A stretch of 64,000 bases of DNA, from assembly GCF_016906535.1 (NCBI RefSeq), contig NC_057383.1, positions 1,302,001 through 1,366,000 of the forward strand. The letters run 5' to 3'. The translations under genes were made by a program, and so were the position numbers. Origin of the DNA: Rhizoctonia solani (taxonomy: Eukaryota; Basidiomycota; Agaricomycetes; Cantharellales; Ceratobasidiaceae). The notes under the pieces are model-generated. The model did no database searches. It was not told the origin of the DNA and saw nothing but the letters and a program-made list of their open reading frames with translations. Positions 1 through 34,500 of the stretch are shown piece after piece (the first letter of the stretch is position 1; each line of letters begins with the position of its first letter).

Positions 1-71
1 ACACACTTTATAAATTTATACAACCAACAATCCCGTTCAGGCATTGAGTCCCACTGTAAAATTCCACCTAT
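1..71. other. Left flank of the element
   Basis: Only 71 bases lie outside the left arm. They are A/T-rich with nothing recognisable, and too short to identify the target gene or a duplication. Confidence 0.6.
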
Positions 72-399
72 TTCAGTAGACTAACATTAACATAGTGTCA
101 AAGCCTTTCCTCAGCGCTCATAGTATTGCGTCATTGACTATGCCAGCTTGTACACCTCGTGGGCCCTAACATAGGAGTAACATAGGGCCACAGCTTGGGG
201 GTAGGGGGATGGCCAGGAAGGGGGGTTGGGGGATAATATAATGGTAGGGGGAAATGGTAGTGAGGGGATAGGGGCATATGTTATGGTAGTGTAGGGGAAT
301 GCATGGGGTGTATGATAGGGGTACATGTTAATATATGTTATAAGGGGTGATCAGAGCCAGGGGTAATGTTAATTGGGGGGAGATATAGGGGTAATGTTA

Positions 400-2510
400 C
401 TGGGGGGAGTATGGTAGTAGGGATATGAATGGACAGGGGCACTCCAAGGGAATGTTAGTGGAGGGGGGTATGTTAGTGGGGGATAGGGGTACTGCATACA
501 TCAATGCTAGTGAGGGGGATTATGTTAGTGGGGGATAGGGGGTAATGCTAGTGGTGAGACTATGTTAGTAAGGGGTAAGGGTTGTACCAATATGGGGAGG
601 GTGGAACAGGGGATAATGTTAGTGAGGGGGAGTATGTTAGTGGGGGATAGGGGTAGCATGCACATGAATGCTAGTGGATAGGAGGCAATGCTAGTGAGGG
701 GAACTATGTTAGTGGGGGATAGGGGGTAATGTTAGTGGGGGATAGGGGGTAATGTTAGTGGGGGGGACCATGTTAGTGATGGTTAGGGGTAGGATGGATG
801 GGGGGATGGACTGGGGGATAATGTTAGTGAGGGGGAGTATGTTAGTGGGGGATAGGGGGTAATGTTAGTGGGGGGACTATGTTAGTGATGGTTAGGGGGT
901 GCACACATGAATGTTAGTGGGGGGGACAATGTTAGTGGGGGATAGGGGGTAATGTTAGTGGGGGGACTATGTTAGTGATGGTTAGGGGAGTGCGCACATG
1001 AATGTTAGTGGGGGGGACAATGTTAGTGGGGGATAGGGGGTAATGTTAGTGGGGGGGACTATGTTAGTGATGGTTAGGGGAGTGCGCACATGAATGTTAG
1101 TGGATGGTGGGCAATGTTAGTGGGGGGGGACAATGTTAGTGATGGTTAGGGGTAGGATGGATGGGGGGGATGGACTGGGGGATAATGTTAGTGAGGGGGA
1201 GTATGTTAGTGGGGGATAGGGGGTTAATGTTAGTGGGGGGACTATGTTAGTGATGGTTAGGGGGTGTGCACATGAATGTTAGTGGGGGGGACAATGTTAG
1301 TGGGGGATAGGGAGTAATGTTAGTGGGGGGACTATGTTAGTGATGGTTAGGGGAGTGCGCACATGAATGTTAGTGGATGGTGGGCAATGTTAGTGGGGGG
1401 GACAATGTTAGTGATGGTTAGGGGTAGGATGGATGGGGGGGATGGACTGGAGGATAATGTTAGTGAGGGAGAGTATGTTAGTGGGGGATAGGGGGTAATG
1501 TTAGTGGGGGGGACTATGTCAGTGATGGTTAGGGGAGTGCGCACATGAATGTTAGTGGATATGAGATAATGTTAGTGGGGGGGACAATGTTAGTGATGGT
1601 TAGGGGTAGGATGGATGGGGGGGATGGACTGGAGGATAATGTTAGTGAGGGAGAGTATGTTAGTGGGGGATAGGGGAGTGCACACATGAATGTTAGTGGA
1701 TATGAGATAATGTTAGAGGGGGGGACAATGTTAGTGGAGGATAGGGGGTAATGTTAATTGGGGGACTATGTTAGTTAGGGATGATGGTATTATATGTAAG
1801 GATGGATGGAATGGAGGACAATATTACTCAGGGGACTATGTTAGTGGGGGATAGGGGGTAATGTTAGTGAGAGAGACCATGTTAGTGAGGGTCAGGGGGG
1901 TGCACACATGAGTGTTAGTGGATGGGGAGTAGTGTCAGTGGGGGGGACTATGTTAGTGGGGGATAGGGGACAATGTTAGTACAGGCAACTATGTTAATGG
2001 GGGATAGTGATGGTTAAGGGTAGTGTGGATAGAGGGGGATGGAATAGGGGATGCTGTTAGTGAAGGAGGTTAGCAGGACATAGGGGGTGATGTTTATCAG
2101 AGGAACTAAATTAGTGGAGGATAAGGAGTAATGTTAGTCAGTGGTGGGACTATGTTAATGACACTTAGGGGTAGTGTCAATGGCAGGATGGAATCAGGAT
2201 AATGTTAGTCAGTGGGAGTATGTTATTAGGGGACAGGGATTGAATAAGGTGTAATGCTAGTCAGGGGAAGTATGTTAGTGGGGGATAGGGGGTAATGTTA
2301 GTGTGGGGGACAATGTTAGTCAGGGATGGTGGTAGTACATATGAGTGGATGGAATACAAGATAATGTTAGTTGGGTGGAGTATATTAGTGTGGATGGGGC
2401 CAGTGTGCACATGGGTACTATTGGATATTGGACAATGTTAATGAGGTGCACATTAGTGGGGGATAGGGGAGAATGTTAGTGGAGGAGAGCAACATTAGCA
2501 ATGCCTAGGG
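400..2510 (+). repeat. G-rich GTTAGTG satellite, left arm
   Basis: Tandem short units combine a TGTTAGTG core with GGGGGATAGGGGGTAA, GGGGGGACTA and GATGGTTAGGGG variants. A longer-period unit beginning AGGATGGATGGGG recurs at 791, 1154, 1426 and 1608. Those spacings are 363, 272 and 182 bases, close to four, three and two modules of about 91 bases. Units are cleanest at 600-1700 and decay towards 2500. Open frames across it are low-complexity and are not genes. Confidence 0.9.
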
Positions 2511-2515
2511 GTATT

Positions 2516-3078
2516 TGTTACAACCCTCTAACATATACCATTAGGATTGCACAATTTTTCTGATATTTTTACTATTTTTTCCGAACTGCTTATCTTACGT
2601 TTTTCAATCACGTGATCTCGGCGCTTATTATGCCAAGATGCCGCGCCAAGATGCCGTGCCAAGGGCGCTTAGGAGAAGTCCACGCTTCTGTGCAGCCCGC
2701 AGCATGCTTCCTTTTTCATATCCTTCCTTCTTTTCTCACAAGCTTTGACCACCTGTAGATAGTTCTCTTGTGTATAAATACAAGAGGGAAATTGCTTGGA
2801 GACCCCAAGTTGATTTTACCTTGTCTCATATTCATTGAGGAGGATACATCCAGCCAGCTAAGTAGCCGGCCCCCAGTAGCTAAACCACACTTACCCCTTT
2901 ATTCAACCTACCACACCTCCAGGCCTAAGGCCCCTTTGTCCATAGCACTCAGTAGAAGTCTGCCTTAAGCGGCAGTAGTATAGCCTAGTTAGTTAGTTGG
3001 ACCAGTGTTGCTTGTAGTAGTACAGCCTTAAGCGCCTGTCCCCACCAGCGTGTACCCACCTTACAGTGGTGTACAACA
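2516..3078 (+). mobile_element. Solo LTR (retrotransposon relic), left arm
   Basis: A 563-bp non-satellite block interrupts the array. It starts TGTTACAACCC and ends GTGTACAACA, so it has TG...CA termini, and it is flanked on both sides by the same 5 bases GTATT (2511-2515 and 3079-3083). A TATAAATA box lies at 2773-2780. These are hallmarks of a single long terminal repeat left after recombination of a Ty3/gypsy-like or similar element; no internal retrotransposon genes are present. The open frame 2768-2968 inside it is not a gene. Confidence 0.85.
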
Positions 3079-3083
3079 GTATT

Positions 3084-3900
3084 ATAGATGAGGGGCAGTG
3101 CAATAGGGGCTACTATTATTTAGGTGGAGTATGTTAGTGGGGGTCAGGTCAGTGTGCATGTAGGCTAACAGGTGGGGGAAATATTAGTAAAGGACACTAT
3201 GTTGGTGATGGATTGGGATGGTATGTACATCAATGCTAGTGGATTGGGGAATAATGTTAGTCACAGGAAGTATGTTTCTGGGGAATATGGGTAGTGTGTA
3301 CATCAATGCTAGTGGATAGGGAGTAATGTCAGTGAGGGGGACTAGGTTGGTGGGGATAGGGGTAATGTTAGTGGGGGGAGGGACTACATTAGTGAGGAAT
3401 AGGGATAATGCACACAAGTTTGAGGGAGTATGGTAGCTTGCAGGCAGTAGGTTGGTCAGGGTCAAGGGTCAGGTAAGTTGGCACTGATGGTAATGTTAGT
3501 TGAGGGGACTATGTTAGTAGATGCTGGTGGTGTCACATCCAGTTAGGATGCATTTGAGGGATAATGTTAGTCAGGTGAAGTATGTTAGCATGGAACCATC
3601 AATAGCGTTACTCAGCAGGAATATGTTAGTAACTTATAGGGGCCCATAAATGGCTAAGACATAATGTGAGATAACATTATTCATGGCAAGTATGTTATTA
3701 TGTGATGGTTGGCATTTCAGTTGGAAGTATTGGCAGTGCACTTATATTGGTTAGGGGGAGTATCTTAGTATCAGATGTGTGAGTGCACACAAAGGATATA
3801 CTGAGGCAGGTGTAATGTTGTTCAAGTGATTTGGAAGTGTCTAAGTAGGGGGTATAGCCAAACAGGGGAATTTGATGCTAGTACACCTTTCCACCCTGAT
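3084..3900 (+). repeat. Diverged satellite inside the solo LTR, left arm
   Basis: GTTAGT-type units continue between the LTR and the inner unique stretch, but are sparse and heavily diverged. The mirror copy lies at about 17152-17968. The open frame 3184-3465 (and its mirror) is a satellite read-through, not a gene. Confidence 0.75.
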
Positions 3901-4064
3901 CATATGCACTTTGAGTTATCAATCCAAATTTGGAAATTATGATTAGAATTACTATATAAATATAAATAATCAAACATTAGTCTTCTACTTATACTGTACC
4001 TGAACCTTATCAAAAATGTATTTGAGCATATTTTCTATACTTGGATGGCTGCATTTGTCCTCAT

Positions 4065-4355
4065 GTACCCAACCAAATCAGTCAGAGTCCCCAAGCACTC
4101 CCAAGCACTTATGTGTTCTGCCCAAGGTGGGTCAGCCCCTGCAAGCTCCAATCAACTCTTAGTCATCTTGCTTGACCAAATTGGTCAAGTGGACTTTGCC
4201 TGATATGGGAGGTCAAATATTAGATAGACTTCCAGAATGGTACAAATAACAGCTGACTAAGTACAGTGTGTAGCTTGCAGAGGCTTGCCCACCTTGGAGA
4301 GAACACATAAGTGCTTGGGAGCACTCAGGAACTCTGACCAATTTGTTTGAGTAAG
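4065..4355. mobile_element. MITE-like hairpin, left arm
   Basis: A stretch of about 290 bp has imperfect terminal inverted repeats of about 75 bp. The left end, reading from about CAAATCAGTCAGAG through CCAAGCACTTATGTGTTCT to CTGCAAGCT, is mirrored by AGCTTGCAG...CAATTTG at the right end. A short near-palindrome centred on CCAAATTGG sits in the middle. There is no coding capacity. No clear target duplication is visible. Confidence 0.6.
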
Positions 4356-4638
4356 TCAATTAGTTGGAGTATGCCAGTATGAAGATATGGATCCACCCAG
4401 GTTATGTGCACATGATTTTGATAGAATACAAGGAAAATGTTAGTTGGAGAGATTGATAAATGAGGGCCAGGTAGCAGCAAATATTTGGTAACATCACTTA
4501 CAGACTCACAATAAGTTTGCACCCACTAACATTCACTTGCATTCACTAACATTCACTTGCATTCATACCTTCAGCCACCTTTCATCTACTATCATTCACC
4601 AATGTTAATATCTTTCCCCCCATACCACCATTCCCAGC

Positions 4639-5838
4639 TTACTTTATTCCTTCATGTACTCTTACCTTACTGTATTTCACTCAACTCTTGCTTGCCCCGT
4701 CTCATGTAAGCAATATTACGTGTCTCAATCTCAAAACGTATCTACCCATTATGTTACCAAAAATACACCGCCTATTTACTTGTCATTATTGTCAAGTTGC
4801 GTGGGTGATTCAAGTTCGCGTTCCCAATGTGCCGGTAACAAATCCTGACGTTTTGGCGACAGGTACGGCGTCACCGCACGCTTGTTTGGGCTCCTCGGAC
4901 TTTGGTTGGCAAGCTCTGCCTGCGGAGGTGAGAAGCGCACACGCGACGTGCGTACGGGACTCCCCAATGGAGTAGTCAATCCTACATGTATCATACATTC
5001 AGATTGAGCAATTAAAATTTGACCGTGTAACCCTTACTTTCTGATCCTCTCAACGCGGCTTGCGTCTGTTGCGTCGCTCTCTTCCTCTTATTGGTGCCTG
5101 GTGAAATGCTCTGTTCCGTTGTATTCTGGTGAAGATGTCCGGTCTTTATCAGCTTTTCAGCGCTGACAACACAAATTTCTCACCGGTGAGCCGCGATGTT
5201 GCTTGCTTGGGGGCGTTTCATCCCAATCCATTTCTATTTCTTTGTCTTCGTCTCCTCCACCTCCTAGTTGTTTTTCATCGCTTTTTTGTTTGCAATAGTG
5301 CCATGTAACTACACCCGCTGGGTTCTAATACCAATTTTCTGTTAGAAAACCATCAAATTGCACGTATATACTCACAACCTCTGAATTATATTCCTTAAAA
5401 CCATCCTTCTTGCCCAGACTGCCAAAAAACCATCGTCTCTAGTCCTTCCCACACGGGCATACATTCTTGAGCCAAGAGTCCCATTCCCACCCCTCGTTTG
5501 ACCGTACTCGACGTGTGACCGGCATGTTTGAATGGTTGAAGTGAGGTCGGACGTAATACAACCAAGAAATCATCGCTGCCCACCTTCCCGTTGACACGTG
5601 TTTGATCAAACACTCACACACACGTTTTGAGCTGTTATAACGTATTTATTCGAGCCTCTCCGTTAGTATGATACACATTGTAAGACGCTACGTAACAAGA
5701 ATAAAACGTCCACCGCAAAGAAGTCAACATATTGAACAATTTAAAATAATCAAAAGAAATGGCAAGCCTTGTGTGCTCGCAACCAACCTAAAGCCTGACT
5801 ATGCACTCAATGTGAGCATATGATCGGGCCAGTGATTT
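4639..5838. other. Unique DNA between left arm and transposase gene
   Basis: No convincing gene is seen. Overlapping short frames at 4650-5000 contradict one another. A short exon-like stretch at 5134-5184 (ATG to a GTGAGC donor) could be a gene fragment but has no continuation I can support. The stretch ending at 5838 would be the 3-prime flank of the minus-strand transposase. Confidence 0.5.
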
Positions 5839-8800
5839 TCAGCCCAAATAAGTTGTACAATGGGGTTCTACAATCGAAACAAATTCAATAATCGAATAAA
5901 ATGAACCAAATGAAACCCTCACCTTGACATGTTCATCGCATTGGTTGTACAGGTCAACTGATAGCTGTTCGTAAAAGTCGGCTTTTTGACGTGCGTATTC
6001 TGCCATTCCTGAGGCAAGGCCCGGCTGCAAGGACTTGGACTCCCACTCACGCCGTTCATATTGAAATCCGTTTAGCGCCATTACCATCTCTCGTTTGAGA
6101 AATTTCAGCTCTTCTTCCCATTGAATGTACCGTTGTCGTGCTCTAAACCACTCGACTTTGAGAGCTACACATTTATAAATTGTGAGATCGTGCTGAGATT
6201 TTAGGGAGTAATCAAATAAACATACCATCTATCTGCCATTGTTCATCATTCATCGCCGCCTGCGAGCGCCAAAACCATGGGATGGCATGACCCTTCTGGC
6301 CTAAGCTAGTCGATACATTCTCTAAGTAATCACTAAGCATACGCAACTGGTTCGACTCGAGCAATTTGTACGTTTCTTGGTCAGTAGATGCGAGATCGAG
6401 GCGGAGGAGGGCCGCACAAGAGCGATTGTACCGGCGATGAGCTCTTTGAACTTTGGACTGTAAGTCCCGCATTGCTACTTCCATACGCGTTGAAGCTTTC
6501 TCTCCAACAGCGTTCTTGCGTTTGTGTTGAAGCGCAAAGTGCTTTGCTCCTAACAGGTTCTTGATCGTACGAAGTGCGTCCTCGCATACAGCCCGTTGGA
6601 GTCGCGCCTCTACTTTTGGTGCCTGGAGACACCCCCCGTCAATGAGTGACGAGCTTGAATACGACGACGGCAAGCCAAGCTCAGAGTCTTCCGGGTGTGG
6701 GCTATTACTCTGCTCCCGCTCTTGGTGATCGGGGTCTCCAATGACCCAAGGTACTGCTCGCGCTCCTGGTGGTGGGCGTTAATGCGCGATAAAAGTCGTT
6801 CACGGCGCTCGTTGAGGAGGTTCTGCTGGCGGGGCGTGCCTTCTTGCTTCTGATTTGATGTGTCATATTGTAACTTATCCCTAGGATCCAACATAAAGTG
6901 AGCGGAGTTAAACTATTGCTTAGACGCACTTACATTGTATTCTCCAGATCAATACCTTTATTTATCCACCTTGTCAGTCCTCGTTTTGTGGTTTCAGTTT
7001 CAGCCAGCCACTCCTCCTTTTCCTCACGCTCATTTTCTTGCTGAAGAACCTCCTGTAGACTCTGACCTGTGTTTACGTAGTCCAATCAATAACACACCAT
7101 TGCATAATCCCAAATGTATTATTTGAAGCTGACAAACTCACCCCAATCATATGAGCCAAAAAAGGGGCTGGTCCACCGCCCGTTTGTATCCTTATACGGC
7201 TCAATCGACTCTTTTCTCCAGTGAATGGTCAACTGACTAGGTAAAGATTGGTCGAGTTCGGTAAAAACAGCTTTCTGCCCATGGTAAGACTTCAGCGCGC
7301 CACGAAACTTCCCAATTAGGAACGTGGCTATGATAACCGTGGTAAGCGTGTAGCCGATGGAATCTATTTGTAACTCACCCATAGTTATATTCTTTTCAAA
7401 ATTCCAATCGAGAATAATGTAATTGATTGAATCCCACCGTGCGCCAGGACTTTTTTCGGACGTACTTCCTGCGGTCTCATTCAGAAACGCCCATGCGCGT
7501 TCGCAACCCTCCCCCTCTAGTCTCCCTACAAATGACTTGTAGTTCAGGGAGTGTAATACACGACATTTCTCTGTATGTCCTTGAATGTGAAACTTCGGGA
7601 CCCCTCCGATAAGTTTCAAGTCGCTGGGGAGGGCCAGATGTGCCGGAAATTTAGTGGCTCGCTCCTGAAACTTAGGTGACCAGTGACACCAAATATCGTA
7701 GGTCATTCCAAATTCAAGTGGCCCAAGCCTGAGCAACCGTGCAATGGCTGATGCAATGGCATAATCACCATAAGCAAAGCTATGTGTAATTCATGATACG
7801 TTAGCAATCAGTTATAATGCGCGAGTTGAATCACTGACCGTTCCCCTTTAAAGAAATCGACAAGTCCTTGAGGCATAAATGAACTATGGCGCGCGCAGGT
7901 ACATGCGCCTACCCCAGTCACGTCAAGCCCCGCCCATCGCACGAATCTGTCCAGCGCCGCCTTATGATTATCACATTCTGGACGACTTTTGTCCTGGTAT
8001 ATGATTTGAAACTAGTTATCATGCGCTTTTATTCTTAGGCTTACGGTACTGGGTTCCTTGTTAGCCTCGGTTTTCAACCATTCTTGGTATAACCCATGAG
8101 CAACAAAATACATCAGTCCATCTGTGAAGCACATGTCGTCCTTATCGACCTTCTTGGCCTTCCGCAAGTTTCGGAAGTTTCCATCGAAAGAAAACCAAAA
8201 CATAAAAAACATCCTAAAAGTACGGTATAGTATTAATACACAGTCATTAGCTGAATAATGTGTATGAGCGTACCTCTCCTCCAGTGGAACATCGTCAATA
8301 TTGAAGTTGACCCCGGGCCGAGGACAAGCGATACAAGGGATGGCCAGACTACCGCTAGTTTCAGGGTCGCCTTCCTTACGATATACTGCCCCCGCTCGCT
8401 TAGGGCCATCAGGTAAGCATATTTACGTTGGGCCTGTAAAGCTCCCGGTAGCGATCGCTGACTTGTCCAGGAAACCCGGTGTGCGAAAGTCGCTTTAGTA
8501 CAGAGTAATAGCGATATCCAGAAGTTTTTCCAAGGGTTGAGAATGTTGTGAAATGTTCAAGTAGCTCAAGGTAAACGCCGACTTGGTATTCAAATTGGTA
8601 CAAGGTAGAATGCCGGCACGGAGCAGTAAGAGCGGATGCAACGAATCTGGCTGGTGTCCACAGTAGGATACTCGGAGCTGGTGGAATCCATTGGTATGAC
8701 CAATGCATATAGTCGCTTCGACAGGCTTTGAGACACATGCCTCATCACCGTGGCCCAGATGTAGAATCAAGCCAACATCGGCGAGTGTCGTCCTTTTCCA

Positions 8801-9420
8801 GAAGCGGCCGGACAAACCAAAATACGATGAAAGGGGGCTCGTTGATGCTGATCCAGTAAGCACTTCTGACAGGTTGGATGTTCGTTTGCACAAGATTGGC
8901 ATTGGTACAAGACAGTTTGGCGGCACGAACATCGAGAACACGACAAATCTAGACTTGGGGCGGAATGGCGTTCATAGAGCGCATATAGGTAGGTATGGGC
9001 TTGTTCTTCTTTCCATCTCTTCAACTGAATTTGGGCTCTACTCAGATTATACAATGTCAGCCGGCTTAGTGTATTGTTTGATTAAAAGAAATTAATTACT
9101 GATTTTATTTTATCCCGTGGCTCCGACTCAATTGGCTCTGTGTCTACATAGTTCTCAAAGCCCATGTCGTCAAACTCATATGGAGCAGACACATTATGAG
9201 TTGAGTTACAAGCTGCGGGAGAATTATCTTGTTTTATTGATGCTACATTCGAGGGCCGGAGTCATCTGGTGTCTGTTGTTGGACGGGATATGAGTAGTCC
9301 GAGCGACATCGGTTTTTTGGCGCAAAGAACTGACAACCCGACCACGGCGACTGGGTTGATAGTGTCGGCTTACGACTGGCCTGAAAGAACCTGAGGTAGA
9401 CCTGGTACTTCGAGAGCTCA
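5839..9420 (-). pseudogene. KDZ transposase with CxC2 cysteine cluster (frame-broken)
   Basis: This multi-exon gene encodes a Kyakuja-Dileera-Zisupton transposase, a DDE/RNase H-fold enzyme expected to cut and join element ends in the nucleus. In order: a short S/R-rich N terminus (from 9420); a CxC2-type zinc cluster (8770-9000, spaced cysteines with YQCQSC and CQKC, then LHLGHG at about 8750); a conserved KRAG...CPRPGV block (8270-8400); first catalytic Asp in FSFDGNFRN (about 8180); a CARH block (about 7900); second Asp in YDIWCHW (about 7690); Glu in LEGEGCERAW (about 7490); and a long charged coiled-coil-like tail ending at 5839. Introns are mostly about 50-60 bases. Frame changes near 8812, 8574, 8397 and 6736 and near the N terminus break the reading frame unless they are sequence errors. 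The family call is firm; activity is doubtful. Confidence 0.85.
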
Positions 9421-11464
9421 TACCGTGATGCCGAAAGACAGACGGAGGATGTGGAGGGGTATGTTCAATGCAATCGTCGTACAAGGATTTCGCTGACCAA
9501 ATGTTGATCTTTTGCGGACAATCTATTTTCCTGTTCCGTGAATTCCTTTTCAATTCCACGTCTGTCTTTTGTTTGCGTCAATTACGGTTTGCATCCTTAA
9601 GCTCTGACTGCAAACCATTCGACAGGTCACACAAGGTCACACAAGGCAGCAGGAAAGAATATACAATCAATTTCCTAGTTATGATGCTACAGCACATGAG
9701 TGATATACCGCATTGACTAGTGCGTTTAGCTGTTAACTTTGCGATACAATTGATAACCGCTCTAAGTATTGCACGAATTGCGAGGATTCGAAAGGTGCAC
9801 GTATTTGTCACACATTCCAACGAGCTGTTAGTTGAACACACTCAGAATTTAGGCTCCGGCACGCTGGCTGTTATAACGCCGCGTGTTCATCATTTTACCT
9901 GTTGCAAGGTACCGGACAAAAGCGAGCACTCACAGACGGGTGGGCCGTCACCAGCGACAGCCCATGGGGTTGAGAGTGGGAGAACACATTTGTAAATAAT
10001 AGTTGGGCTTACTATACATTCCGAAACCTTATATATTCACCGGATAACATGCATAAATGCGGGCACAATGCTTGTCAGACGATGGGCAAGACGAGCGCGC
10101 GTGGGCTGAATATACAATATGATAAACAATATCCAAATGATCACGTGATTATGCCGACATTTCTTGGACCAAAGTCTGGCTCGTGCGTCCCCGCAGGCTC
10201 CGATCCACAGCCTCGAACAATGAAATGACGAATGTCTTCTAGCGTCGGGTAACGCAAAGTATGACATTTTGCCATTTCTCCAAAACCTGCTGTGATTGTG
10301 AGCGTGTGCAAACGCATTATGGTCCCATATAGTCCATAAGTCTCACGAGCCCCATGAAATGCGAATAAGCGATTGTATCGTAGAAAAACAGGTCATTTAT
10401 ATGGGTGATACAACGCCATAAACGCAAGTCGCTTCGTGCCCACAGCTATGAAACGTGGAACGGAATACGTTGTAATGTTAGTCATAACCCGTGAAACTCA
10501 ACCCCCAGAGACCGAAATGCCTCGGCGACGGAAAGACAGGGGAATCAAGCACGGGCTTGTCTCACCTAACAAGGTGATCCAATCTTCACGGTAATGAATC
10601 TACGTTATGAGTTTGTGACGCCCACCAAGCCCTACGGGACCATATATGCACTTCCGGCGCTCCTGGCCTCAGCTGGTCTGAATGAGTTGCTCAATTGCCA
10701 TCTACGCAATGACATGGGCCCCACTGGCAAAGGTATGGCTTGTTACACTCCCAACGTCTGTACATCGAGCAGGGTGCTCAAACTGGCACTGGAGAATCAT
10801 TTGGTGCCTGGTTGTATTTGATATACCTTCTCTGGAATTTGATCGATGGCTTCTTGGCCATCAATAGTTTGATTGGGTAAATCCAATGACAAAATTGGTA
10901 TTACACCACTGGGCTCCATAAGTCCGACATCTTTGCTGCGTTTAGAGACCTTAGTGGTACGGTTTTTGGGACATAAAATCTGAATACATGCACATATCAC
11001 TTGAGAGTCATAAGCTACTGGGAGTTGTTGCAGGGGGCTAAGTCCGAACAAAACCATAATTGATTTTGAATATTCCGTGGGGAAAGGTTCGGGGCAGGTA
11101 CACGCGCGGGTAGTAGAAATAACGTTACTAGTGGCTTAGAGTGATGCAACCAAATAATAATAATACAACTCCGCATTGTGAAATGATCAAAGTGCCACTG
11201 GCTAAGGGAGGAGTAACAAGGTCACTGATTTACACATATGCGATGCGAGAATAGCAGATAGAAATGGTAAAAGAATTTCCCGAAATTAGTGACATCTAAA
11301 TCGAGAAAGTTTCGCCTGGGACTTGACCTTAACAGTGTGCTGTGCCAAAGCCCAATTGCCCTCTGCCAACCGACAGATGGGTGACATAACTCAAACACGC
11401 CTAAGTCTTCAGCCGGCTTTATAGTGTTTGGGGTAATAACATTCCATATTGTTCTCGCTCTCGA
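9421..11464. other. Intergenic region between divergent transposase and companion
   Basis: A spacer of about 2 kb separates the divergent genes and presumably holds both promoters. Short frames occur on both strands (for example 9578-9841, 10594-10821, 10797-11057), but they overlap in opposite directions and resemble no family I know. I see no RNA gene or further repeat. Confidence 0.5.
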
Positions 11465-14400
11465 ATGCCCTCGAGTCATAACGATCCTCCATCTGTGTCT
11501 ACTGGTCAACTAGCTATGGACGACGCCGATGATTCTTCGATCAAAGGACTCAAGCTCAACCCTGCTGAGCGGGCCTGGGTAATCAACAACTTCTACCAGG
11601 AGTTTCTTACCAATAAGGCGAATCGAGGGGCACGGAACCAACCCAACGGCAAGAAGTTTGCACACAGCACAGTCACAGACGCATACATCAAGCATCATTG
11701 GGGTTCTTGGAGCGATCAGAAGAAGGAGAGATACAAGCCGAAGCTACGAGAAGTGAGTTCAACGCCTTAAATTCTTGTACTTGTGACCTGATAATCGTTG
11801 AATGGTTTCTTACGATCAAACATTTGTTCCTTCCCACCTCCTTTATTCAGGTATGCTTGCCAAATGGCCACATTTTTCGTTACTGACTCCCATTATGTAG
11901 GTTTATATAATCTTTTCAATAATACGTTATCACAGGATGGGGCCGCGCAAAAGGCCGACGAGGCATCCAAAGCTCCAAAAAGACCGAAGAAGATTAGCCC
12001 TGAAAACGAGTGGTCGCGGAACAACCCACAAGAAGTCCAACGCGAGATGAACAAGTATCTGGAAAACACGCCGGGCTCGTCGTGGAACGTTGGCTCCGTC
12101 CGCCATGTGACTTGTCGCACCTTTGAGGGCTTGCCGAGCGACCAAAGACAATACTGGCAGGAACAAGCAGAGGCAGAACGACAACGGCAAAACGCTTCAT
12201 TGCCCTATCAAGGCGAGACCCTAGCTCAGTGAGTTGCTGGTTACCCTTGCTCGTTTGATTCTTAGGTGTGTTGATTATGTTGGCTTGTCAACTTAGTTAC
12301 GTGTCTGATTGGATGAAGCTACTGAACCGCCTGGCTCTGGATGGTGAGCGATGCGGTAACCTATCGCTTGCGGCCTTCGTAGGTTGGCAAAGCATTGATA
12401 GCAACGGTGTAGCCGTTCAAAATGTTGATATGTGAGTACTGGCCTATATTAATGTTTAATAGACTTTTCACACAAACTCCTAGCTATACGTCCGAGAGTA
12501 TCGCCGCGTTCAAGGATTCGCCAGAGCAGATTGAAGCTCACGCCAAGTTCACACATTGGCTCGAAGGATATAATGGTATTTATAACTCAGTTTTTGTCCT
12601 TAAATATTCCGTGACTCATTGACGTGATAGGTGTTGCTATCAGCGGGAGCGACCCGGCTCCCACAGCCATTCCGAATCCAAAATTTCACAACCGTCCAGA
12701 AATGCCACCACTAGAGGGCAAGCCAAAGCTTTCTCTCGTTCGCCAGCAAAACCGTGATTTTATCAATGCGGAATGGTGTAAGCAACATCTTTGAATTACT
12801 GTGCTCACATCTAACCTAGTTTGAAGCATTTTATGGCGGAGTTGGCCCAACTCCTTGGACACTATTAGGGGAAGTTCATCGCCAGGGACAACTGCACACC
12901 TGGGTTCACGGTTGGCCGGAAGATCTTGATTTTTCCGAGCCGTCAAACCAGAACATTGCCGACTCTATCCGACTTAACGAGCACTTACGGGGACGCCAAA
13001 ATGGACTAGCCAGCGACAAACAGTTCCGATTCAAACGGGTATTCGGTAGTAGTAACTCCCCTCCTGCTCATTGTGTAGCTACTCGGATATCGAAGGTTCA
13101 GCATCGAGGCAACACCGTTCATCAGCTGGATTACGATGGCCCGGTGGACAAGCCGCAATGCGAACGTGCGGTCGCATATCCCCCACGATGCTGGGCTTAT
13201 TTTTATCATCATTTTCAGCAGAAGAACTTGAACCATTGGCTTGGTCTAGCGAGCGTCAGCAATATGCCAGTCATAGTGTTGATCCCCGAGGACGTGCTCA
13301 CGTTTATTCGCGGTTTCCTTGGCCCCGTCGACTCTGTATTATCCGCCAAAATAATCAAGACGCTCGAAATGGTCAACCTAATTGAAGAGCATGGGCCACA
13401 CACAGTACGTACTAGTTCTACCGATTATATAGAAAGTGAGTATCACTAAGTTGCGTATACTAGACTCCTCAAGGCATATGGGGCTTGGCTGATGGGAATA
13501 ATCCCCTCCCAGCACTCATGCCGGCGAGAAAGCTTTCGACCCCTTCGGCTCTGTCATCGCGAATAATTAACGAGTTCTGGGTGCCCGATTCATATGGGAT
13601 GAGTTCGTATGCAGCACAAAGTAAAGGGCTTGGGCGACATTCAACTCTCGAGTATTTCTTCTTATCGATCGATCGTTTGAAAGATAGCTCTTTCATCCAC
13701 TCGACTAGTCAGACCGTGCAAGGTGGCATTGGTGGCGTTGTCAATATCATAATTCCTCTGGTTCAGCTACTATTGAACGCGGCTGTTTCGGCTCTAAGCC
13801 TCAAGAATCTCCCGTCTCCCCCGCCCTCGTCACTGGATTTGGATGGTCTCGGTCATGGCGAATTTTACAAAATTTGCAAGTACCTCGACGCTTGGTCTGA
13901 GGTATGCGAGCGATCTGTTTCTATCCTATCGAGCTCCTCACATGAGCGCATACATTCGGGCGACGGCATCGCGGGATCGGTCGAAGCTTCGGATAAGGAC
14001 TTGACTAGTACCAACTCTGGTGACAACGACAAATTGCCTCGAGTAGATGCCACCCAGCCAAGAAAGGCTACCGGCAAAGGTACAGCCCTGGCCTCCCAAC
14101 GCGCACCTGAGGAGATCGCACCCGTGTCATCTACTGAGTTGGATGGAGGATCCAACTCAGGAGAGAGAAACCCAGATGACGAGGCTGTGCGTAAGTAACT
14201 TCATATTATGTTTATGCCTTTGGTGCTTACATCATTCACAAAGCTATTGTTCTTGACAACGCGCTTTTTGAGCCCACTCCCCAGCGTCAATCCACCACAG
14301 ATTTCAACCAACGGAAACACATATTTGGACTCTTTGCTGCTCAACCTGATGTGCCAGCCATTACGGCCGATCCTGAGGATATCGCAAAGGAGGCTGAGAC

Positions 14401-15899
14401 ATGCCTGACTGAGGCCCAGGCTGCGGTGTCGAGGTGGCAGGTGCTGGATACCTTATACAACATTCCCTACCCGCTGGCCGCTATGCGCTATGCCCAGACA
14501 CTTTCTCAGCGTGCCGAAGAGTCGATCCAACCACTAGTAACCATTATATTACTCCATCGGTTCAATTTTAACAGATGTCGAGATTTATGGCCTCGGGTCA
14601 AATCGTACCACCAGGGCGTGCTTCTTTCTCTGCGTAAATTGGCACATATTTTGAAGGCGCTAGAAGGTCTTTTACGGGACGATGCTCAGTCGCAAGTAGC
14701 CCTCAAGAAGTTTGGCGAAATCCTGGCTGAAGTCAAAGCACGGTCATTGGTGTGCTGCGCAATTGTCGAGCCGCTCAAGCAGTTGGAGCTTGTTTCCACT
14801 TATCACGCAAATCGCCTGAAGGACCTCTGGGATGCCGACGTATTTAGCCTTGACCCAAGTGAGATCGGTGAGCTGGTGCATGGGTTAGATGCTTGGCGAG
14901 ATCAGGCCGAGGGGACGCTTCGTGAACTTAGCCATTCTGTGATCAGAAAATGGCAACTGTTAGGGTTGCACGACTATGCTGAAATTCCGAAAGAGGTGAA
15001 CTTTCGATTTGGAAGTCCAGGAGGTGTGCTTTTCACCGCTGAATCAAGAAGTATGTATTGTGTCTTTAGTGTTTCTATGTTATTAAAGTACTAAAGTCGA
15101 ACTCAATCACAGAAATTCTACAGCAGCATCAATTGACTCGTAAGTACATCCACTAATCGGCAATAATTAGTAGTGTTGAAACCTGTATTAAGTCGCCTTG
15201 GCTCCGAATCCCGGCCCGGGTGCCAACACCGGCTTGCCTAGGCCAATCACACCCGACCCCTGGGACACCTCTGTCCCAGAAATGCCTCCCATTCTGCCAC
15301 CATCTTCCTTGAGTCAAAGCGCTAGATCTCCCACCCCTGGACTGTTCACAAATGTCTCGCTTACGGTTGGCCCTCCCTCGACCAATTCTCAAATGTGCTC
15401 ACCTCAAGCAGACGCCAGTCAGGAGCTTGCATCGTCCAAACATCAAGACATAACCGCTGAAATTGTTGACAAAGAACCATCTGCTTCTCAAGCAACGGTG
15501 GGGGAACCGGTTTTGATTTTGGGCAACGTGGATGCGGTGGATAGTAGGCCAGAGGTGATGGTGGTGTCCGTGAATTGTGAGGAAGAACGGTGGGAGGAAG
15601 CGCCTGCGTCTGACAAACAGAATGAGCCCCGTCGGTCAACCCGCGGAAGGGTCACTCTGGCTGGAGGCAAGATGCTCCGGCTTGCAACTGCAGCCTTGGG
15701 TGCAATGCATGATGCCCCAACAAAAGTCTTGCGGCGGTCACAACGAGGGGAGGCTGGACTATGTGGAGGTGAAGGGGAAAACAAGGCCAAAACAATGGTA
15801 AAAACAAGGGCAAAGCGGAAGTCTGAAGCAGCGGTGGCAAGAGAAACAGAGGGTGTTGGTAGGAAAAAGGCTGCAAAGCGTCAGAAGGTAAACAAGTGA
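11465..15899 (+). CDS. KDZ-element companion protein, HMG-box-like segments and basic tail
   Basis: I do not recognise this as a named family. The start at 11465 follows a promoter-like stretch and opens exon 1 (to 11752, GTGAGT donor). Exon 2 is 11936-12228; further exons run through about 12300-12430, 12480-12575, 12631-12778, 12820-13040, 13080-13405, 13480-14190, 14243-15050 and 15197-15899, giving well over 1000 residues. Exons 1-2 hold two segments like HMG boxes or a KDZ-linked DNA-binding fold (for example LPSDQRQYWQEQAEAER). The middle is globular, with Trp-rich stretches (TPWTLLGEV, WVHGWPEDLD). An alpha-helical region follows at 14350-15050. The tail is Pro/Ser-rich and ends in basic patches (RRSTRGR, KKAAKRQK) that look like nuclear-localisation or DNA-contact signals. 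It lies divergently from the transposase inside the same arms, so an accessory transposition or chromatin role is inferred. No TET/JBP dioxygenase signature was seen. Confidence 0.6.
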
Positions 15900-16368
15900 T
15901 TGATACATGCCGTATTGTAAATAGAACAGCGTTCCAATTAATAAACCACCACTCAGCAGGCCATAGATGGGTTGTGTGAGTGTCATCAGTATGATCAGAA
16001 AGGTGGAGGGCATGGTGTAGGGAAAGGTAACAAGTAAAGATAACTATGATGAGAACGGCAATTAGAGGAAGATGATATGAAACTGTAATGCAAAAGCTGT
16101 TCTATTTTGTCTTCCTGTGAATTTAGGAGTGCTTTGCAGTCAGCAACACCAAAATACAAAGCACTCAAACAACTTTGCAGGTAATAAATAGGGTACTTGA
16201 GACCAAACTCTGTTTGTGATTCTCATGGACTGCCCTATCTTGCAATACTGACAATTCAATGTTGTTATCTGTGCACATTATTACATATTGTTTGCAACAA
16301 AGAGGCTGAAGTAGCCCAGGTAGGGGCACTGCATTGTTAAGGTTTGAATCTTTTATACCATGAAATAT
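15900..16368. other. Companion 3-prime flank up to right arm
   Basis: A/T-rich non-coding DNA follows the stop codon of the companion gene and runs into the inner end of the right arm. Nothing else is recognisable. Confidence 0.5.
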
Positions 16369-16696
16369 GCTGGGAATGGTGGTAGGGGGAAAGATATTGT
16401 AATTAGTGAATGTTAGTAAATGTTAGTGAGTGGGAGCAAATGTTAGTGAGTAGGAGTGAATGTTTGTGAATGCAAGTGAATGTTAGTGAATGCAAGTGAA
16501 TGTTAGTGAATGCAAGTGAATGTTAGTGGGTGCAAACTTATTGTGAGTCTGTAAGTGATGTTACCAAATATTTGCTGCTACCTGGCCCTCATTTATCAAT
16601 CTCTCCAACTAACATTTTCCTTGTATTCTATCAAAATCATGTGCACATAACCTGGGTGGATCCATATCTTCATACTGGCATACTCCAACTAATTGA

Positions 16697-16987
16697 CTTA
16701 CTCAAACAAATTGGTCAGAGTTCCTGAGTGCTCCCAAGCACTTATGTGTTCTCTCCAAGGTGGGCAAGCCTCTGCAAGCTACACACTGTACTTAGTCAGC
16801 TGTTATTTGTACCATTCTGGAAGTCTATCTAATATTTGACCTCCCATATCAGGCAAAGTCCACTTGACCAATTTGGTCAAGCAAGATGACTAAGAGTTGA
16901 TTGGAGCTTGCAGGGGCTGACCCACCTTGGGCAGAACACATAAGTGCTTGGGAGTGCTTGGGGACTCTGACTGATTTGGTTGGGTAC
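16697..16987. mobile_element. MITE-like hairpin, right arm (mirror copy)
   Basis: This is the mirror-image copy of the hairpin at 4065-4355, with the same imperfect terminal repeats (AAGCACTTATGTGTTCT near both ends) at the coordinates expected from the arm symmetry. Confidence 0.6.
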
Positions 16988-17973
16988 ATGAGGACAAATG
17001 CAGCCATCCAAGTATAGAAAATATGCTCAAATACATTTTTGATAAGGTTCAGGTACAGTATAAGTAGAAGACTAATGTTTGATTATTTATATTTATATAG
17101 TAATTCTAATCATAATTTCCAAATTTGGATTGATAACTCAAAGTGCATATGATCAGGGTGGAAAGGTGTACTAGCATCAAATTCCCCTGTTTGGCTATAC
17201 CCCCTACTTAGACACTTCCAAATCACTTGAACAACATTACACCTGCCTCAGTATATCCTTTGTGTGCACTCACACATCTGATACTAAGATACTCCCCCTA
17301 ACCAATATAAGTGCACTGCCAATACTTCCAACTGAAATGCCAACCATCACATAATAACATACTTGCCATGAATAATGTTATCTCACATTATGTCTTAGCC
17401 ATTTATGGGCCCCTATAAGTTACTAACATATTCCTGCTGAGTAACGCTATTGATGGTTCCATGCTAACATACTTCACCTGACTAACATTATCCCTCAAAT
17501 GCATCCTAACTGGATGTGACACCACCAGCATCTACTAACATAGTCCCCTCAACTAACATTACCATCAGTGCCAACTTACCTGACCCTTGACCCTGACCAA
17601 CCTACTGCCTGCAAGCTACCATACTCCCTCAAACTTGTGTGCATTATCCCTATTCCTCACTAATGTAGTCCCTCCCCCCACTAACATTACCCCTATCCCC
17701 ACCAACCTAGTCCCCCTCACTGACATTACTCCCTATCCACTAGCATTGATGTACACACTACCCATATTCCCCAGAAACATACTTCCTGTGACTAACATTA
17801 TTCCCCAATCCACTAGCATTGATGTACATACCATCCCAATCCATCACCAACATAGTGTCCTTTACTAATATTTCCCCCACCTGTTAGCCTACATGCACAC
17901 TGACCTGACCCCCACTAACATACTCCACCTAAATAATAGTAGCCCCTATTGCACTGCCCCTCATCTATAATAC

Positions 17974-18536
17974 TGTTGTACACCACTGTAAGGTGGGTAC
18001 ACGCTGGTGGGGACAGGTGCTTAAGGCTGTACTACTACAAGCAACACTGGTCCAACTAACTAACTAGGCTATACTACTGCCGCTTAAGGCAGACTTCTAC
18101 TGAGTGCTATGGACAAAGGGGCCTTAGGCCTGGAGGTGTGGTAGGTTGAATAAAGGGGTAAGTGTGGTTTAGCTACTGGGGGCCGGCTACTTAGCTGGCT
18201 GGATGTATCCTCCTCAATGAATATGAGACAAGGTAAAATCAACTTGGGGTCTCCAAGCAATTTCCCTCTTGTATTTATACACAAGAGAACTATCTACAGG
18301 TGGTCAAAGCTTGTGAGAAAAGAAGGAAGGATATGAAAAAGGAAGCATGCTGCGGGCTGCACAGAAGCGTGGACTTCTCCTAAGCGCCCTTGGCACGGCA
18401 TCTTGGCGCGGCATCTTGGCATAATAAGCGCCGAGATCACGTGATTGAAAAACGTAAGATAAGCAGTTCGGAAAAAATAGTAAAAATATCAGAAAAATTG
18501 TGCAATCCTAATGGTATATGTTAGAGGGTTGTAACA
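17974..18536 (-). mobile_element. Solo LTR, right arm (mirror copy)
   Basis: This is the reverse complement of the LTR at 2516-3078, with the same 5-bp duplication (AATAC on the plus strand at 17969-17973 and 18537-18541). Its exact mirror position shows it was copied with the arm and is not a second independent insertion. Confidence 0.85.
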
Positions 18537-18541
18537 AATAC

Positions 18542-20650
18542 CCCTAGGCATTGCTAATGTTGCTCTCCTCCACTAACATTCTCCCCTATCCCCCACTAAT
18601 GTGCACCTCATTAACATTGTCCAATATCCAATAGTACCCATGTGCACACTGGCCCCATCCACACTAATATACTCCACCCAACTAACATTATCTTGTATTC
18701 CATCCACTCATATGTACTACCACCATCCCTGACTAACATTGTCCCCCACACTAACATTACCCCCTATCCCCCACTAACATACTTCCCCTGACTAGCATTA
18801 CACCTTATTCAATCCCTGTCCCCTAATAACATACTCCCACTGACTAACATTATCCTGATTCCATCCTGCCATTGACACTACCCCTAAGTGTCATTAACAT
18901 AGTCCCACCACTGACTAACATTACTCCTTATCCTCCACTAATTTAGTTCCTCTGATAAACATCACCCCCTATGTCCTGCTAACCTCCTTCACTAACAGCA
19001 TCCCCTATTCCATCCCCCTCTATCCACACTACCCTTAACCATCACTATCCCCCATTAACATAGTTGCCTGTACTAACATTGTCCCCTATCCCCCACTAAC
19101 ATAGTCCCCCCCACTGACACTACTCCCCATCCACTAACACTCATGTGTGCACCCCCCTGACCCTCACTAACATGGTCTCTCTCACTAACATTACCCCCTA
19201 TCCCCCACTAACATAGTCCCCTGAGTAATATTGTCCTCCATTCCATCCATCCTTACATATAATACCATCATCCCTAACTAACATAGTCCCCCAATTAACA
19301 TTACCCCCTATCCTCCACTAACATTGTCCCCCCCTCTAACATTATCTCATATCCACTAACATTCATGTGTGCACTCCCCTATCCCCACTAACATACTCTC
19401 CCTCACTAACATTATCCTCCAGTCCATCCCCCCCATCCATCCTACCCCTAACCATCACTAACATTGTCCCCCCCCACTAACATTATCTCATATCCACTAA
19501 CATTCATGTGCGCACTCCCCTAACCATCACTGACATAGTCCCCCCCACTAACATTACCCCCTATCCCCCACTAACATACTCTCCCTCACTAACATTATCC
19601 TCCAGTCCATCCCCCCCATCCATCCTACCCCTAACCATCACTAACATTGTCCCCCCCCACTAACATTGCCCACCATCCACTAACATTCATGTGCGCACTC
19701 CCCTAACCATCACTAACATAGTCCCCCCACTAACATTACTCCCTATCCCCCACTAACATTGTCCCCCCCACTAACATTCATGTGCACACCCCCTAACCAT
19801 CACTAACATAGTCCCCCCACTAACATTAACCCCCTATCCCCCACTAACATACTCCCCCTCACTAACATTATCCCCCAGTCCATCCCCCCCATCCATCCTA
19901 CCCCTAACCATCACTAACATTGTCCCCCCCCACTAACATTGCCCACCATCCACTAACATTCATGTGCGCACTCCCCTAACCATCACTAACATAGTCCCCC
20001 CCACTAACATTACCCCCTATCCCCCACTAACATTGTCCCCCCCACTAACATTCATGTGCGCACTCCCCTAACCATCACTAACATAGTCCCCCCCACTAAC
20101 ATTACCCCCTATCCCCCACTAACATTGTCCCCCCCACTAACATTCATGTGTGCACCCCCTAACCATCACTAACATAGTCCCCCCACTAACATTACCCCCT
20201 ATCCCCCACTAACATACTCCCCCTCACTAACATTATCCCCCAGTCCATCCCCCCATCCATCCTACCCCTAACCATCACTAACATGGTCCCCCCCACTAAC
20301 ATTACCCCCTATCCCCCACTAACATTACCCCCTATCCCCCACTAACATAGTTCCCCTCACTAGCATTGCCTCCTATCCACTAGCATTCATGTGCATGCTA
20401 CCCCTATCCCCCACTAACATACTCCCCCTCACTAACATTATCCCCTGTTCCACCCTCCCCATATTGGTACAACCCTTACCCCTTACTAACATAGTCTCAC
20501 CACTAGCATTACCCCCTATCCCCCACTAACATAATCCCCCTCACTAGCATTGATGTATGCAGTACCCCTATCCCCCACTAACATACCCCCCTCCACTAAC
20601 ATTCCCTTGGAGTGCCCCTGTCCATTCATATCCCTACTACCATACTCCCC
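18542..20650 (-). repeat. C-rich mirror satellite, right arm
   Basis: This is the mirror image of the left-arm array, with CACTAACATT and CCCCCTATCCCCCAC units on the plus strand. It matches the left array almost base for base, including the higher-order module pattern. Confidence 0.9.
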
Positions 20651-20981
20651 CCAGTAACATTACCCCTATATCTCCCCCCAATTAACATTACCCCTGGCTC
20701 TGATCACCCCTTATAACATATATTAACATGTACCCCTATCATACACCCCATGCATTCCCCTACACTACCATAACATATGCCCCTATCCCCTCACTACCAT
20801 TTCCCCCTACCATATATTATCCCCCAACCCCCCTTCCTGGCCATCCCCCTACCCCCAAGCTGTGGCCCTATGTTACTCCTATGTTAGGGCCCACGAGGTG
20901 TACAAGCTGGCATAGTCAATGACGCAATACTATGAGTGCTGAGGAAAGGCTTTGACACTATGTTAATGTTAGTCTACTGAA

Positions 20982-21299
20982 GCAACTCAAAATTCATTGG
21001 ACGTTTGCAACTTTTCTAGAGTTCCCTCGAGACCAGTGGCCGATCTCAAAGGCAGGGGAAACTTTCCAACCCTTTACTTATTGTATGCGATGCAGACTAA
21101 ACCAGATGTCCCTCATCCATTGTTGCTGTAAATCTCGATTTTATTTATCAAAGGTTACAATGTGGCCGCAAAGCCTTATAAACCTCTTGACCAATTGAGC
21201 ACAAGACCAACATCGAGGCTACCCAATTACTTAAAATAAGTCTTTGCCCTAATATACCATCCACGTCAGTACATACTCTATCCAGCCAACTCATGATAC
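20982..21299. other. Junction flank
   Basis: Non-repetitive DNA lies immediately outside the element and carries the 3-prime flank of the S41 peptidase gene. No target duplication matching the bases before 72 is visible. Confidence 0.5.
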
Positions 21300-31562: not shown

Positions 31563-34500
31563 TTACGAGCCCATGTGAATATATGGTACCCATCTTCCAA
31601 ATTCCCTTTCTCCCACATCCTCACGCAATGATGAAACAGCATTGTGCAGCGCTCTCCCCGCCTCTCCACTCCCTATCATTCCGTATTTCATCAGCTCTGC
31701 ATATACTTTGTCCGCCACGAATGGTGCATCGCTGTCCATCACCGACCACATCGTGGCGATCACGCTCTGGTACCCAGCCACTAACATCCCTGATGCAAGA
31801 TGTATGGCCTCGTCAGGTAGTTTCTCATCTCCAGTTGCTGTCTGACAAGCCGAGAGGAATGCTAGGCCTTTCCTCCCGAATGACCGCCGGTTTATCGAGG
31901 CCAAATCGAGTGTGCCGTCGTGAAGGAAGAACCCACTCTCGGTGGCGTCAGCGACGTTCTGATGGGCGTGACACGCAAGATGAACCCAGTCATGCTGCTC
32001 CATCGCATCGAGTACTGCCGCGGTTGTGGCCTGGTCATCTACAAGCTCTGTGTACTGAGCTTTACTTTGTGCATGTGTTTTCACGCAAGCAAGTTCTTTA
32101 CTAGTACCAGGCAACGGCGCATGGCCTGGCGTACTTGCTTGACCAATCGCTAGCACTCGTGGTGCATGGCTTGATAAAGTGACCTTTGAGTTGATGAGAG
32201 CGGCGAGCGTAGGAGTGTATGAAGAAATAGCATAATCGAAAACTCGCGATCCTAGCTTATCGTAGTCCCCTGCCGCGTGCAACGGCAAGAAGGATAGCAC
32301 ACCAACAGGGCACCATATTATGGATGGGAGATCGCGTGTGGCAGCGCTGTTATTATTCTGGTGATGCTATGTGAGCACCACTATAGTGGATTTACTGACT
32401 GATTAGACGTACCGTGTATCCAAGAAAGTCTAGGACGGGCTTGACCACGCTGCTCCAAAGAACTGCTAGGGCTATATCCATGCTATCTTTTCCGTCGGAC
32501 TCCCATTGGTAAAAGGGTCTTCGTTCCCGAGAACCTCGGCTCTCGATGGAAGCCTCTATGTCAGAACGCATACGACGAGCCTTCTCCTGGGTGAAGTCGG
32601 GGAGCGGGACATGTTTGATATCGTTCTGCCCTGGTAATATCAGGAGAGCATCGCAGCGATCTTTCGAGCAATTAATGACAACAACAGGCCCATGATGTGC
32701 AGATTGAATCAAGGCCTTTGCCTTTATTGGTTGGAGAAGGTCTTCAAATCCAGGAAGTTCACGGACACTAGCTAATAAGGAGTTGTACTCCCTAGCTAGA
32801 TTAATCCGATGCCCTGATATATCTGACTCAATATCTGTGGGGGGCGGTGGAGGCTCTGAAGGCTCTGATGTTACCTGGTGAAGCTGTGCGGCGGTTGACG
32901 AGAGGCGGGTGGCGAGGTCTGGATAGGAGGATTGGAGCTCGTCAAGAGGAGAGCGTAGCATCAAGCTCTGATTCCAGACAATACACCGTGCATGCTCAAG
33001 CCACTCCAGCGCTGTTTCAAATGCAGATGAGGCAATTGCAGCTGAAGCGGCTTGTACCGCTAGGTCCCCAGTTGTCAACAGATCCTGATAGCGCTGACTA
33101 GTAGTAGCACCAAGCCATATAAATTGAGGAAGTAGGTCGATTGCGGTGTGATATGCCCCCATAGAATCAAGCGGGCTCTCTCCAGAGGCAACGCTTACCC
33201 ACCCAAGCGCGTACTTGAACCTGTTGCGTGGAGCTGCGGTCAGCAACTGGGCGGCAGCACGTAAAGAATACAACGAGTTCTGAAGGTCATGAGGATCCCT
33301 TTTGTTCCGATAGCGGTACAAACAAGAAAATGCCAAAATATGGTGACGCCCTGCCAAGTCAGGATGTTCGCTAGGAGTTAGCGAAACTGCACGGGAATTG
33401 TATTCAATTGATTTCTCCAGGTCATCTATTTCTCTCAGACGCTTGAACCGCTCACTGTGAGACAACCCTAAACTCGCAAGGTGGCTTGGCAATGCTGGGT
33501 GATCATCGGGCGTCAATGCGACTGCACGGGACGTCAATTCAATTGACTTTGTTAAATCATCAAATTCGCTCAGTCGATTAAATCGAGTTGTGTAAGACGA
33601 CCCTAGAGCAGCGAGGCGGAATGGTAAATCCGGGTGTGAATTCGGTGTCAACGCAAGTGCCTGAGATTTGTATTTCATTGACATTTCTAGGTCACTCAGG
33701 TCACCAAGAGACCTGAACCGACCATCATAAGACGCTGCCAGAGAGGCAAGTCGCTTTGGAAAATCCGGGTGATCGCTGTGGGTCAACTCAACCGCGTGAG
33801 ACTTGTATTTGATTGATTTAGTCAGATCTCCTAGTTCGCCTAAACGATTGAACCGAAAAGAGTAAGATGCTCCTAAAGCAGCAAGGCGCATCGAAAGGTC
33901 TGGGTGATCCTTGGGAGTCAATGTAAATGCACGAGAATAATTCTCGATGGACTTTGTCAGATCGTCCATATCGCCCAGACGATTGAATCGCCTACTGTAC
34001 AATTCTCCTAGATGGGCAAGTCGGTTGGGCAAGTCTGGGTGATCATTGGGAGTCAATTCGGCTGCACGGGAGTGGCTCTCGGTGGACTTTACAAGGTCGT
34101 TCAAATCGCCTAGACGACCAAACCGATTGCTGTATGATACTCCAAGAGCAACAAAACGAGATGAAAAGTCCGGATGATTGTCAGGGGTCAATTCAATTGC
34201 ACGAGATATATATTCAATTGACTTTGATAGGTCGTCTAGTTCACCCAAATGTTTGCTCCGGAGGGCGTATGATATACCCAGATTCGCAAGACGGGGTGCC
34301 AAGTCCGGGTGGCCGTCAGGTGTCAACATAACTGCACGAGAATAGCTCTCGATGGACTTTGCAAGGTCGCCCAGATCACCCAAGCGCTTGAATTGGCCAT
34401 CGTAGGATGCGCCCAGAGAATTCAGGTACAACGGTAAATGCGGGTGTCCGTCCGGGGTCAATGCAATCGCCTGAGAATAGTACTTGATAGATTTGCGGAG

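Follow-up and report, generated by a model that had tools for sequence, protein, structure and literature searches.

A probable large KDZ-superfamily transposon with long, repeat-built inverted arms in Rhizoctonia solani

Iyer 2014 is reportedly the founding paper on KDZ transposons. How a transposase joins ends that lie 20 kb apart is, to our knowledge, an open question. KDZ elements have been reported among the largest cut-and-paste transposons, with lengths of up to 30.3 kb in Ectocarpus and 31.7 kb in Chlamydomonas, and the giant Ectocarpus families often carry accessory genes, along with nested insertions, their transposase often being pseudogenised (PMC12477816). The KDZ1–KDZ3 elements of the basidiomycete Cryptococcus, which have been seen to move, measure ~9–11 kb and have terminal inverted repeats (TIRs) of 139–241 bp, target-site duplications (TSDs) of 4–8 bp and a CxC1 cysteine cluster (PMC12810828). 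Kyakuja-1_LB and Kyakuja-2_LB of Laccaria are described with a 7-bp TSD, CA..TG ends, no TIRs and TET/JBP (Kojima 2025, PMC12730594). Long, internally repetitive inverted arms are known from the foldback-like Drosophila elements Galileo and Tetris, whose arms have been suggested to serve as binding sites for transposase and to favour recombination and conversion (PMC3573991, PMC4079207); Galileo TIRs reach about 1.26 kb in D. mojavensis, and the copies with the longest TIRs are without transposase (PMC3573991).

The window analysed here is a 64,000-nucleotide stretch of contig C14 (2,094,219 bp) of a 40.7-Mb Rhizoctonia solani assembly in 16 contigs (hereafter, the genome). At 65–20988 it contains what is quite likely, together with the whole explanation developed below, one insertion of a large KDZ-superfamily DNA transposon, with the following features:

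58–64, plus strand: left copy of the target-site duplication, AAAATTC, the identical 7-mer lying directly outside both ends
65–71, plus strand: left tip, CACCTAT, external to the inverted repeat; the same 7 bp occur twice on C7, twice on C10 and at C14:627717
72–4565, plus strand: left arm, 4.49 kb, a G-rich repeat array followed by a less repetitive inner part
2516–3078, plus strand: solo LTR in the left arm, 563 bp, TG..CA, with GTATT flanks
4566–4640, plus strand: decayed inward extension of the inverted repeat, aligning with ~16365–16486 reversed
5802–9385, minus strand: KDZ transposase gene with CxC2 region, apparently frame-broken (PF18758, PF18803; tblastn of pieces of the database protein P0005)
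11465–15899, plus strand: companion gene, ~1,260 aa, about ten exons
16487–20981, minus strand: right arm, an inverted copy of the left arm in the arm-to-arm alignment
17974–18536, minus strand: solo LTR in the right arm, with GTATT duplication, 562 of 563 bases identical to the left-arm LTR
20982–20988, plus strand: right tip GCAACTC (GAGTTGC when read inwards), outside the inverted repeat; the same 7 bp occur at C15:839138
20989–20995, plus strand: right copy of the target-site duplication, AAAATTC, again the 7-mer directly outside both ends

The span of 72–20981 given in an earlier note on this DNA matches the outer limits of the inverted repeat, but the element itself extends 7 bp beyond them on each side. 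The tips are two different 7-bp sequences, and the 4.49-kb inverted repeat begins 7 bp inside each end. Given that sequence similarity among the tips found in the genome ends just outside these 7 bp, and that AAAATTC stands on both sides, the element can be delimited as 65–20988. Chance agreement of the 7-bp duplication has a probability of ~6e-5; the TSD rests on one insertion, as this is the single copy with both ends in this genome. The insertion point is located ~0.3 kb beyond the end of a 383-aa plus-strand open frame. A 93-aa frame across the insertion point, found on the joined flanks when frames of at least 60 aa were listed, was not accepted as a gene.

In inverted alignment, 72–4565 and 16487–20981 are 99.84% identical over 4,497 columns, with 2 mismatches and 5 gap columns, as expected from the earlier claim of near-identical giant inverted arms, which here surround an 11.9-kb core. 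Every gap is one base long, and in four of the five cases that base is a G. Identity breaks off sharply at 4565/16487, within a short tandem repeat, and weaker similarity, the right side being longer by ~46 bases, reaches about 4640/16365. Each arm contains the motif TGTTAGTG 56 times in one orientation and twice in the opposite one, most commonly at a spacing of 18 or 23 bp, whereas 200 shuffles yielded the motif 0.3 times on average and at most 3 times. The arms are also strand-asymmetric, with a GC skew of up to +0.81 and −0.81. For G-quadruplexes we claim no enrichment, with 15 found against a mean of 8.7 and a maximum of 15 in the shuffles. One 103-bp internal inverted repeat (79%) with an 82-bp spacer is present per arm, at 4066–4353 and 16699–16986; it resembles a small nested element, and a genome search gave no match beyond the two arms.

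The observed/expected ratio of CpG is 0.11 in the outer left arm, 0.02 in the inner left arm and 0.12 in the whole right arm; elsewhere it is 0.98 and 0.81 (core halves), 1.1 and 0.83 (flanks) and 0.52 (LTR). On the right side, the CpG-poor zone begins at ~16.0 kb, just beyond the companion gene. The TpG/CpA ratio indicates no excess in the outer array (1.09; left flank, 1.12) and an excess in the inner arm (1.33), and CpG in the window tip stands against TpG or CpA in the three relic tips compared (9 of 9). Loss of CpG from the window arms by methylation decay is a possibility that we do not claim.

The core (11,921 bp) contains two divergently transcribed genes. That a KDZ transposase and one large companion gene lie between the arms had been claimed before, and both are found: PF18758 (KDZ) matches the minus-strand ORF 7122–7790 (E 8.7e-30, 104.5 bits vs a cut-off of 26.6) and PF18803 (CxC2) the minus-strand ORF 8498–8971 (E 6.9e-14, 52.4 bits vs a cut-off of 27), and the second gene occupies 11465–15899. 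KDZ was the sole match in a Pfam scan of the transposase ORF, and in the relative P0005 (983 aa, RHS04_07631, R. solani) positions 3–217 of the 217 of PF18758 are covered. The element thus combines PF18758, the cysteine cluster CxC2 and a TSD within the ~7–8 bp of the KDZ superfamily (7 bp here, from one insertion). At least 42 relatives of the KDZ gene were found among the 7,999 scored candidates, those sharing most words, 39 of the 42 being named Rhizoctonia or Ceratobasidium.

In tblastn comparison with P0005, the window gene changes frame at 8.4–8.6 kb and near 6.74 kb, and ordinary introns do not explain these changes when the frames are read by hand; no comparable frame change was found in the companion gene by the same kind of comparison. 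On this sequence evidence, the transposase of the window copy looks frame-broken. The frame changes could be sequencing error, as they appear to reflect very small differences in length. Moreover, a database model of the window gene, P0006 ('Transposase family Tnp2 protein', R. solani, 907 aa, with KDZ listed and no CxC2 listed), extends towards about 4780 and bypasses the frame changes via other splicing, so the gene could be read unbroken but different. Considering that the transposase looks frame-broken, the window element, though structurally complete, is probably not autonomous; what had been called a complete giant mobile unit is complete in structure, but does not look like a working unit.

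The exon pieces of the companion gene are all open. Searches for relatives gave four proteins, each of them named R. solani, and a profile search gave the same four. In a Pfam scan of three of these four, no match appeared up to an E of 5, and four scanned window ORFs of the companion gave one match, DUF3646 at E 0.17, far below the cut-off. Within this genome, the companion-bearing half of the core and one companion exon match only themselves. The companion relative P0002 (RHS04_07632) and P0005 have consecutive locus tags and are each listed with a contig of 12,066 bp, which is close to the core in length, as might be expected if long near-identical arms broke a draft assembly on both sides. 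The companion is probably a resident part of the element, with a putative role as an accessory transposition or DNA-binding protein. Between the two genes, a ~45-bp stretch at about 10169–10219 matches 14 other places in the genome (88–95%).

The tip pattern TTCAGTRGACTAACATTAAMAT has eight mismatch-free matches in the genome: two in this element, two on C7, two on C10, one at C14:627,724 and one on C15. CACCTAT stands before six of them (the left tip of the window element, both on C7, both on C10, and C14), and GAGTTGC before the remaining two (window right and C15). The C10 tips were counted together with those of C7, since both belong to one duplicated region (99.8% over 39.1 kb), which gives four left-type and two right-type independent tips. 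This 39-kb duplication (C7:2200911-2240000 and C10:2020001-2059043) lies toward chromosome ends and holds two tips and LTR sequence. A ninth match, which lies on C5 and has 3 mismatches, was not retained, because a reversed control pattern gave 21 matches at a tolerance of 3 mismatches; for the eight mismatch-free matches, the control gave none. The recurrence of the end types at C7/C10, C15 and C14:627,717 argues for a transposon family and against a fold-back artefact.

The earlier note had proposed looking in this genome for further copies with the same ends; the tips recur, but no further full copy was found. The other places consist of one decayed relative with KDZ (C15) and of tips or arm pieces without a detected core (C7/C10, C14). 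At C7/C10 and C14:627,717, the tips and arm pieces are interrupted by LTR sequence (among the best 40 of 59 and 57 matches on C7 and C10, respectively), and separate searches for the core did not find it at these places. The C15 relic (829,118–839,138) includes a KDZ gene region (80% and 73% identity), a 6.3-kb arm and a right-type tip. Its 6.3-kb stretch contains CTAACAT 23 times and the full TGTTAGTG once per orientation. The relic is nearly CpG-free (observed/expected 0.02–0.03), and 167 of the 723 substitutions in the aligned core set a window CpG against TpG or CpA, with one CpG shared. On C15 the KDZ gene points at the right-type end, whereas in the window it points at the left-type end. 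The C15 core is therefore reversed relative to its tip type, which fits recombination between arms as a simple explanation, although this orientation, seen in one relic, could be a chance junction. Tblastn gave no companion trace within the 40 kb examined on C15, and tip searches did not find the other end of the relic. Across the genome, the KDZ domain gives five matches at three places, namely the window, C15 and C14:1,684,781; the third locus, C14:1684781-1685390, fits the Pfam model better than any other place in the genome (E 5e-39).

Like the giant Ectocarpus and Chlamydomonas elements, the R. solani element is large and belongs to the KDZ superfamily, so that its size by itself is not new given the reported 30.3 and 31.7 kb; it differs in having multi-kb, repeat-built inverted arms, which are not mentioned in the parts of that report considered here (PMC12477816). 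With Cryptococcus KDZ1–KDZ3, for which movement was observed, it shares being a basidiomycete KDZ transposon, but it has CxC2 instead of CxC1, and 20.9 kb with 4.49-kb arms instead of ~9–11 kb with 139–241 bp (PMC12810828). The 7-bp TSD and a left end beginning CA are as in Kyakuja; however, the right end is TC rather than TG, each end is followed, 7 bp inward, by an arm of the 4.49-kb inverted repeat whereas Kyakuja are TIR-less, and Kyakuja carry TET/JBP whereas the companion relatives scanned here had no Pfam match (PMC12730594). Since it has neither CA..TG termini nor an absence of TIRs, we file the element, as judged from its end features, as KDZ and apart from Kyakuja. Its 7-bp TSD also departs from the 8 bp reported for Zisupton/Dileera (PMC12730594). 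In its long, internally repetitive inverted arms it is foldback-like, as are Galileo and Tetris, but its transposase is KDZ, unlike that of Galileo (P superfamily) or Tetris (thought to be Mutator-like) (PMC3573991, PMC4079207). By analogy with these, the architecture would work like that of a foldback element.

In the open-licence literature, no joint mention of Rhizoctonia and KDZ was found, and titles and abstract openings among the matches listed describe no comparable KDZ arms. The earlier suggestion that no KDZ element with satellite-built arms of this size had been described holds, within these matches, for the arms. Separately, giant KDZ elements and arms of the foldback-like type are both known; their combination appears new.

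A solo LTR stands at the equivalent place in both arms with the identical 5-bp duplication GTATT, and LTR-related sequence is present at many other genome places. That an LTR should have inserted twice, independently, at one and the same base is not credible; the shared LTR and shared GTATT therefore indicate that, once the LTR was in place, the sequence of one arm replaced that of the other. Such copying would be gene conversion or recombination between the arms, which could flip the core too. Part of the arm identity could stem from polishing, as only assembly sequence was compared. A single recent inverted duplication, by template switch or break repair, that replaced the other arm would likewise account for the identical LTR and for the sharp end of identity in the short tandem repeat, and would make recurrent conversion unnecessary. 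We consider it possible but rather unlikely, given that the outer 7-bp tips remained different and that degenerate inverted similarity continues inward of 4565/16487, so that an older inverted repeat seems to predate the last homogenisation.

Near-identity of the arms, with five of the seven differences being single-base gaps and four of these a G, is also what an assembly fold-back or collapsed repeat might leave, the second arm being the assembler's copy. This is highly improbable, since 11.9 kb of other sequence separates the arms, their inner ends differ, a genome search with the first 1,012 bp of the right flank gave no second match, the tips and TSD are those expected of a transposon, and relics elsewhere bear the same tips. 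The tips at C7/C10 and C14 without a detected core could instead suggest a composite, in which a pair of independent small elements brackets other genes and carries them along. But the core itself encodes a KDZ transposase, C15 also has KDZ adjoining a repeat arm and tip, and the tip types differ as would the left and right ends of one element, all of which makes a composite improbable.

For a single KDZ element with homogenised arms, the TGTTAGTG sites may form a putative transposase-binding array that pairs both ends, and the 7-bp tips may be the cleavage ends; the window copy would require transposase from another copy. A more speculative extension, which we hold only tentatively and think rather doubtful, is a foldback-type KDZ lineage with asymmetric 7-bp tips outside a self-converting multi-kb array, in which arm recombination would keep the putative binding array uniform and flip the core, the CpG-poor arms would offer host CpG methylation little while CpG-rich genes lie between them, and the companion would be a dedicated array-binding or arm-pairing protein. 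With 56 sites per arm, asymmetric tips and evidence of arm-to-arm copying, the element provides a testable case for end pairing. It would also extend foldback-like architecture to another superfamily and reveal, in a crop pathogen, an inverted repeat of a kind that can rearrange chromosomes.

Elsewhere in the window, a 1,102-aa open frame on the minus strand (32392–35700) overlaps a tandem repeat with a 135-bp unit, and the stretches 56650–56909 and 58639–59069 hold repeats of 18 bp together with a GC-rich repeat of 180 bp in 2.4 copies.
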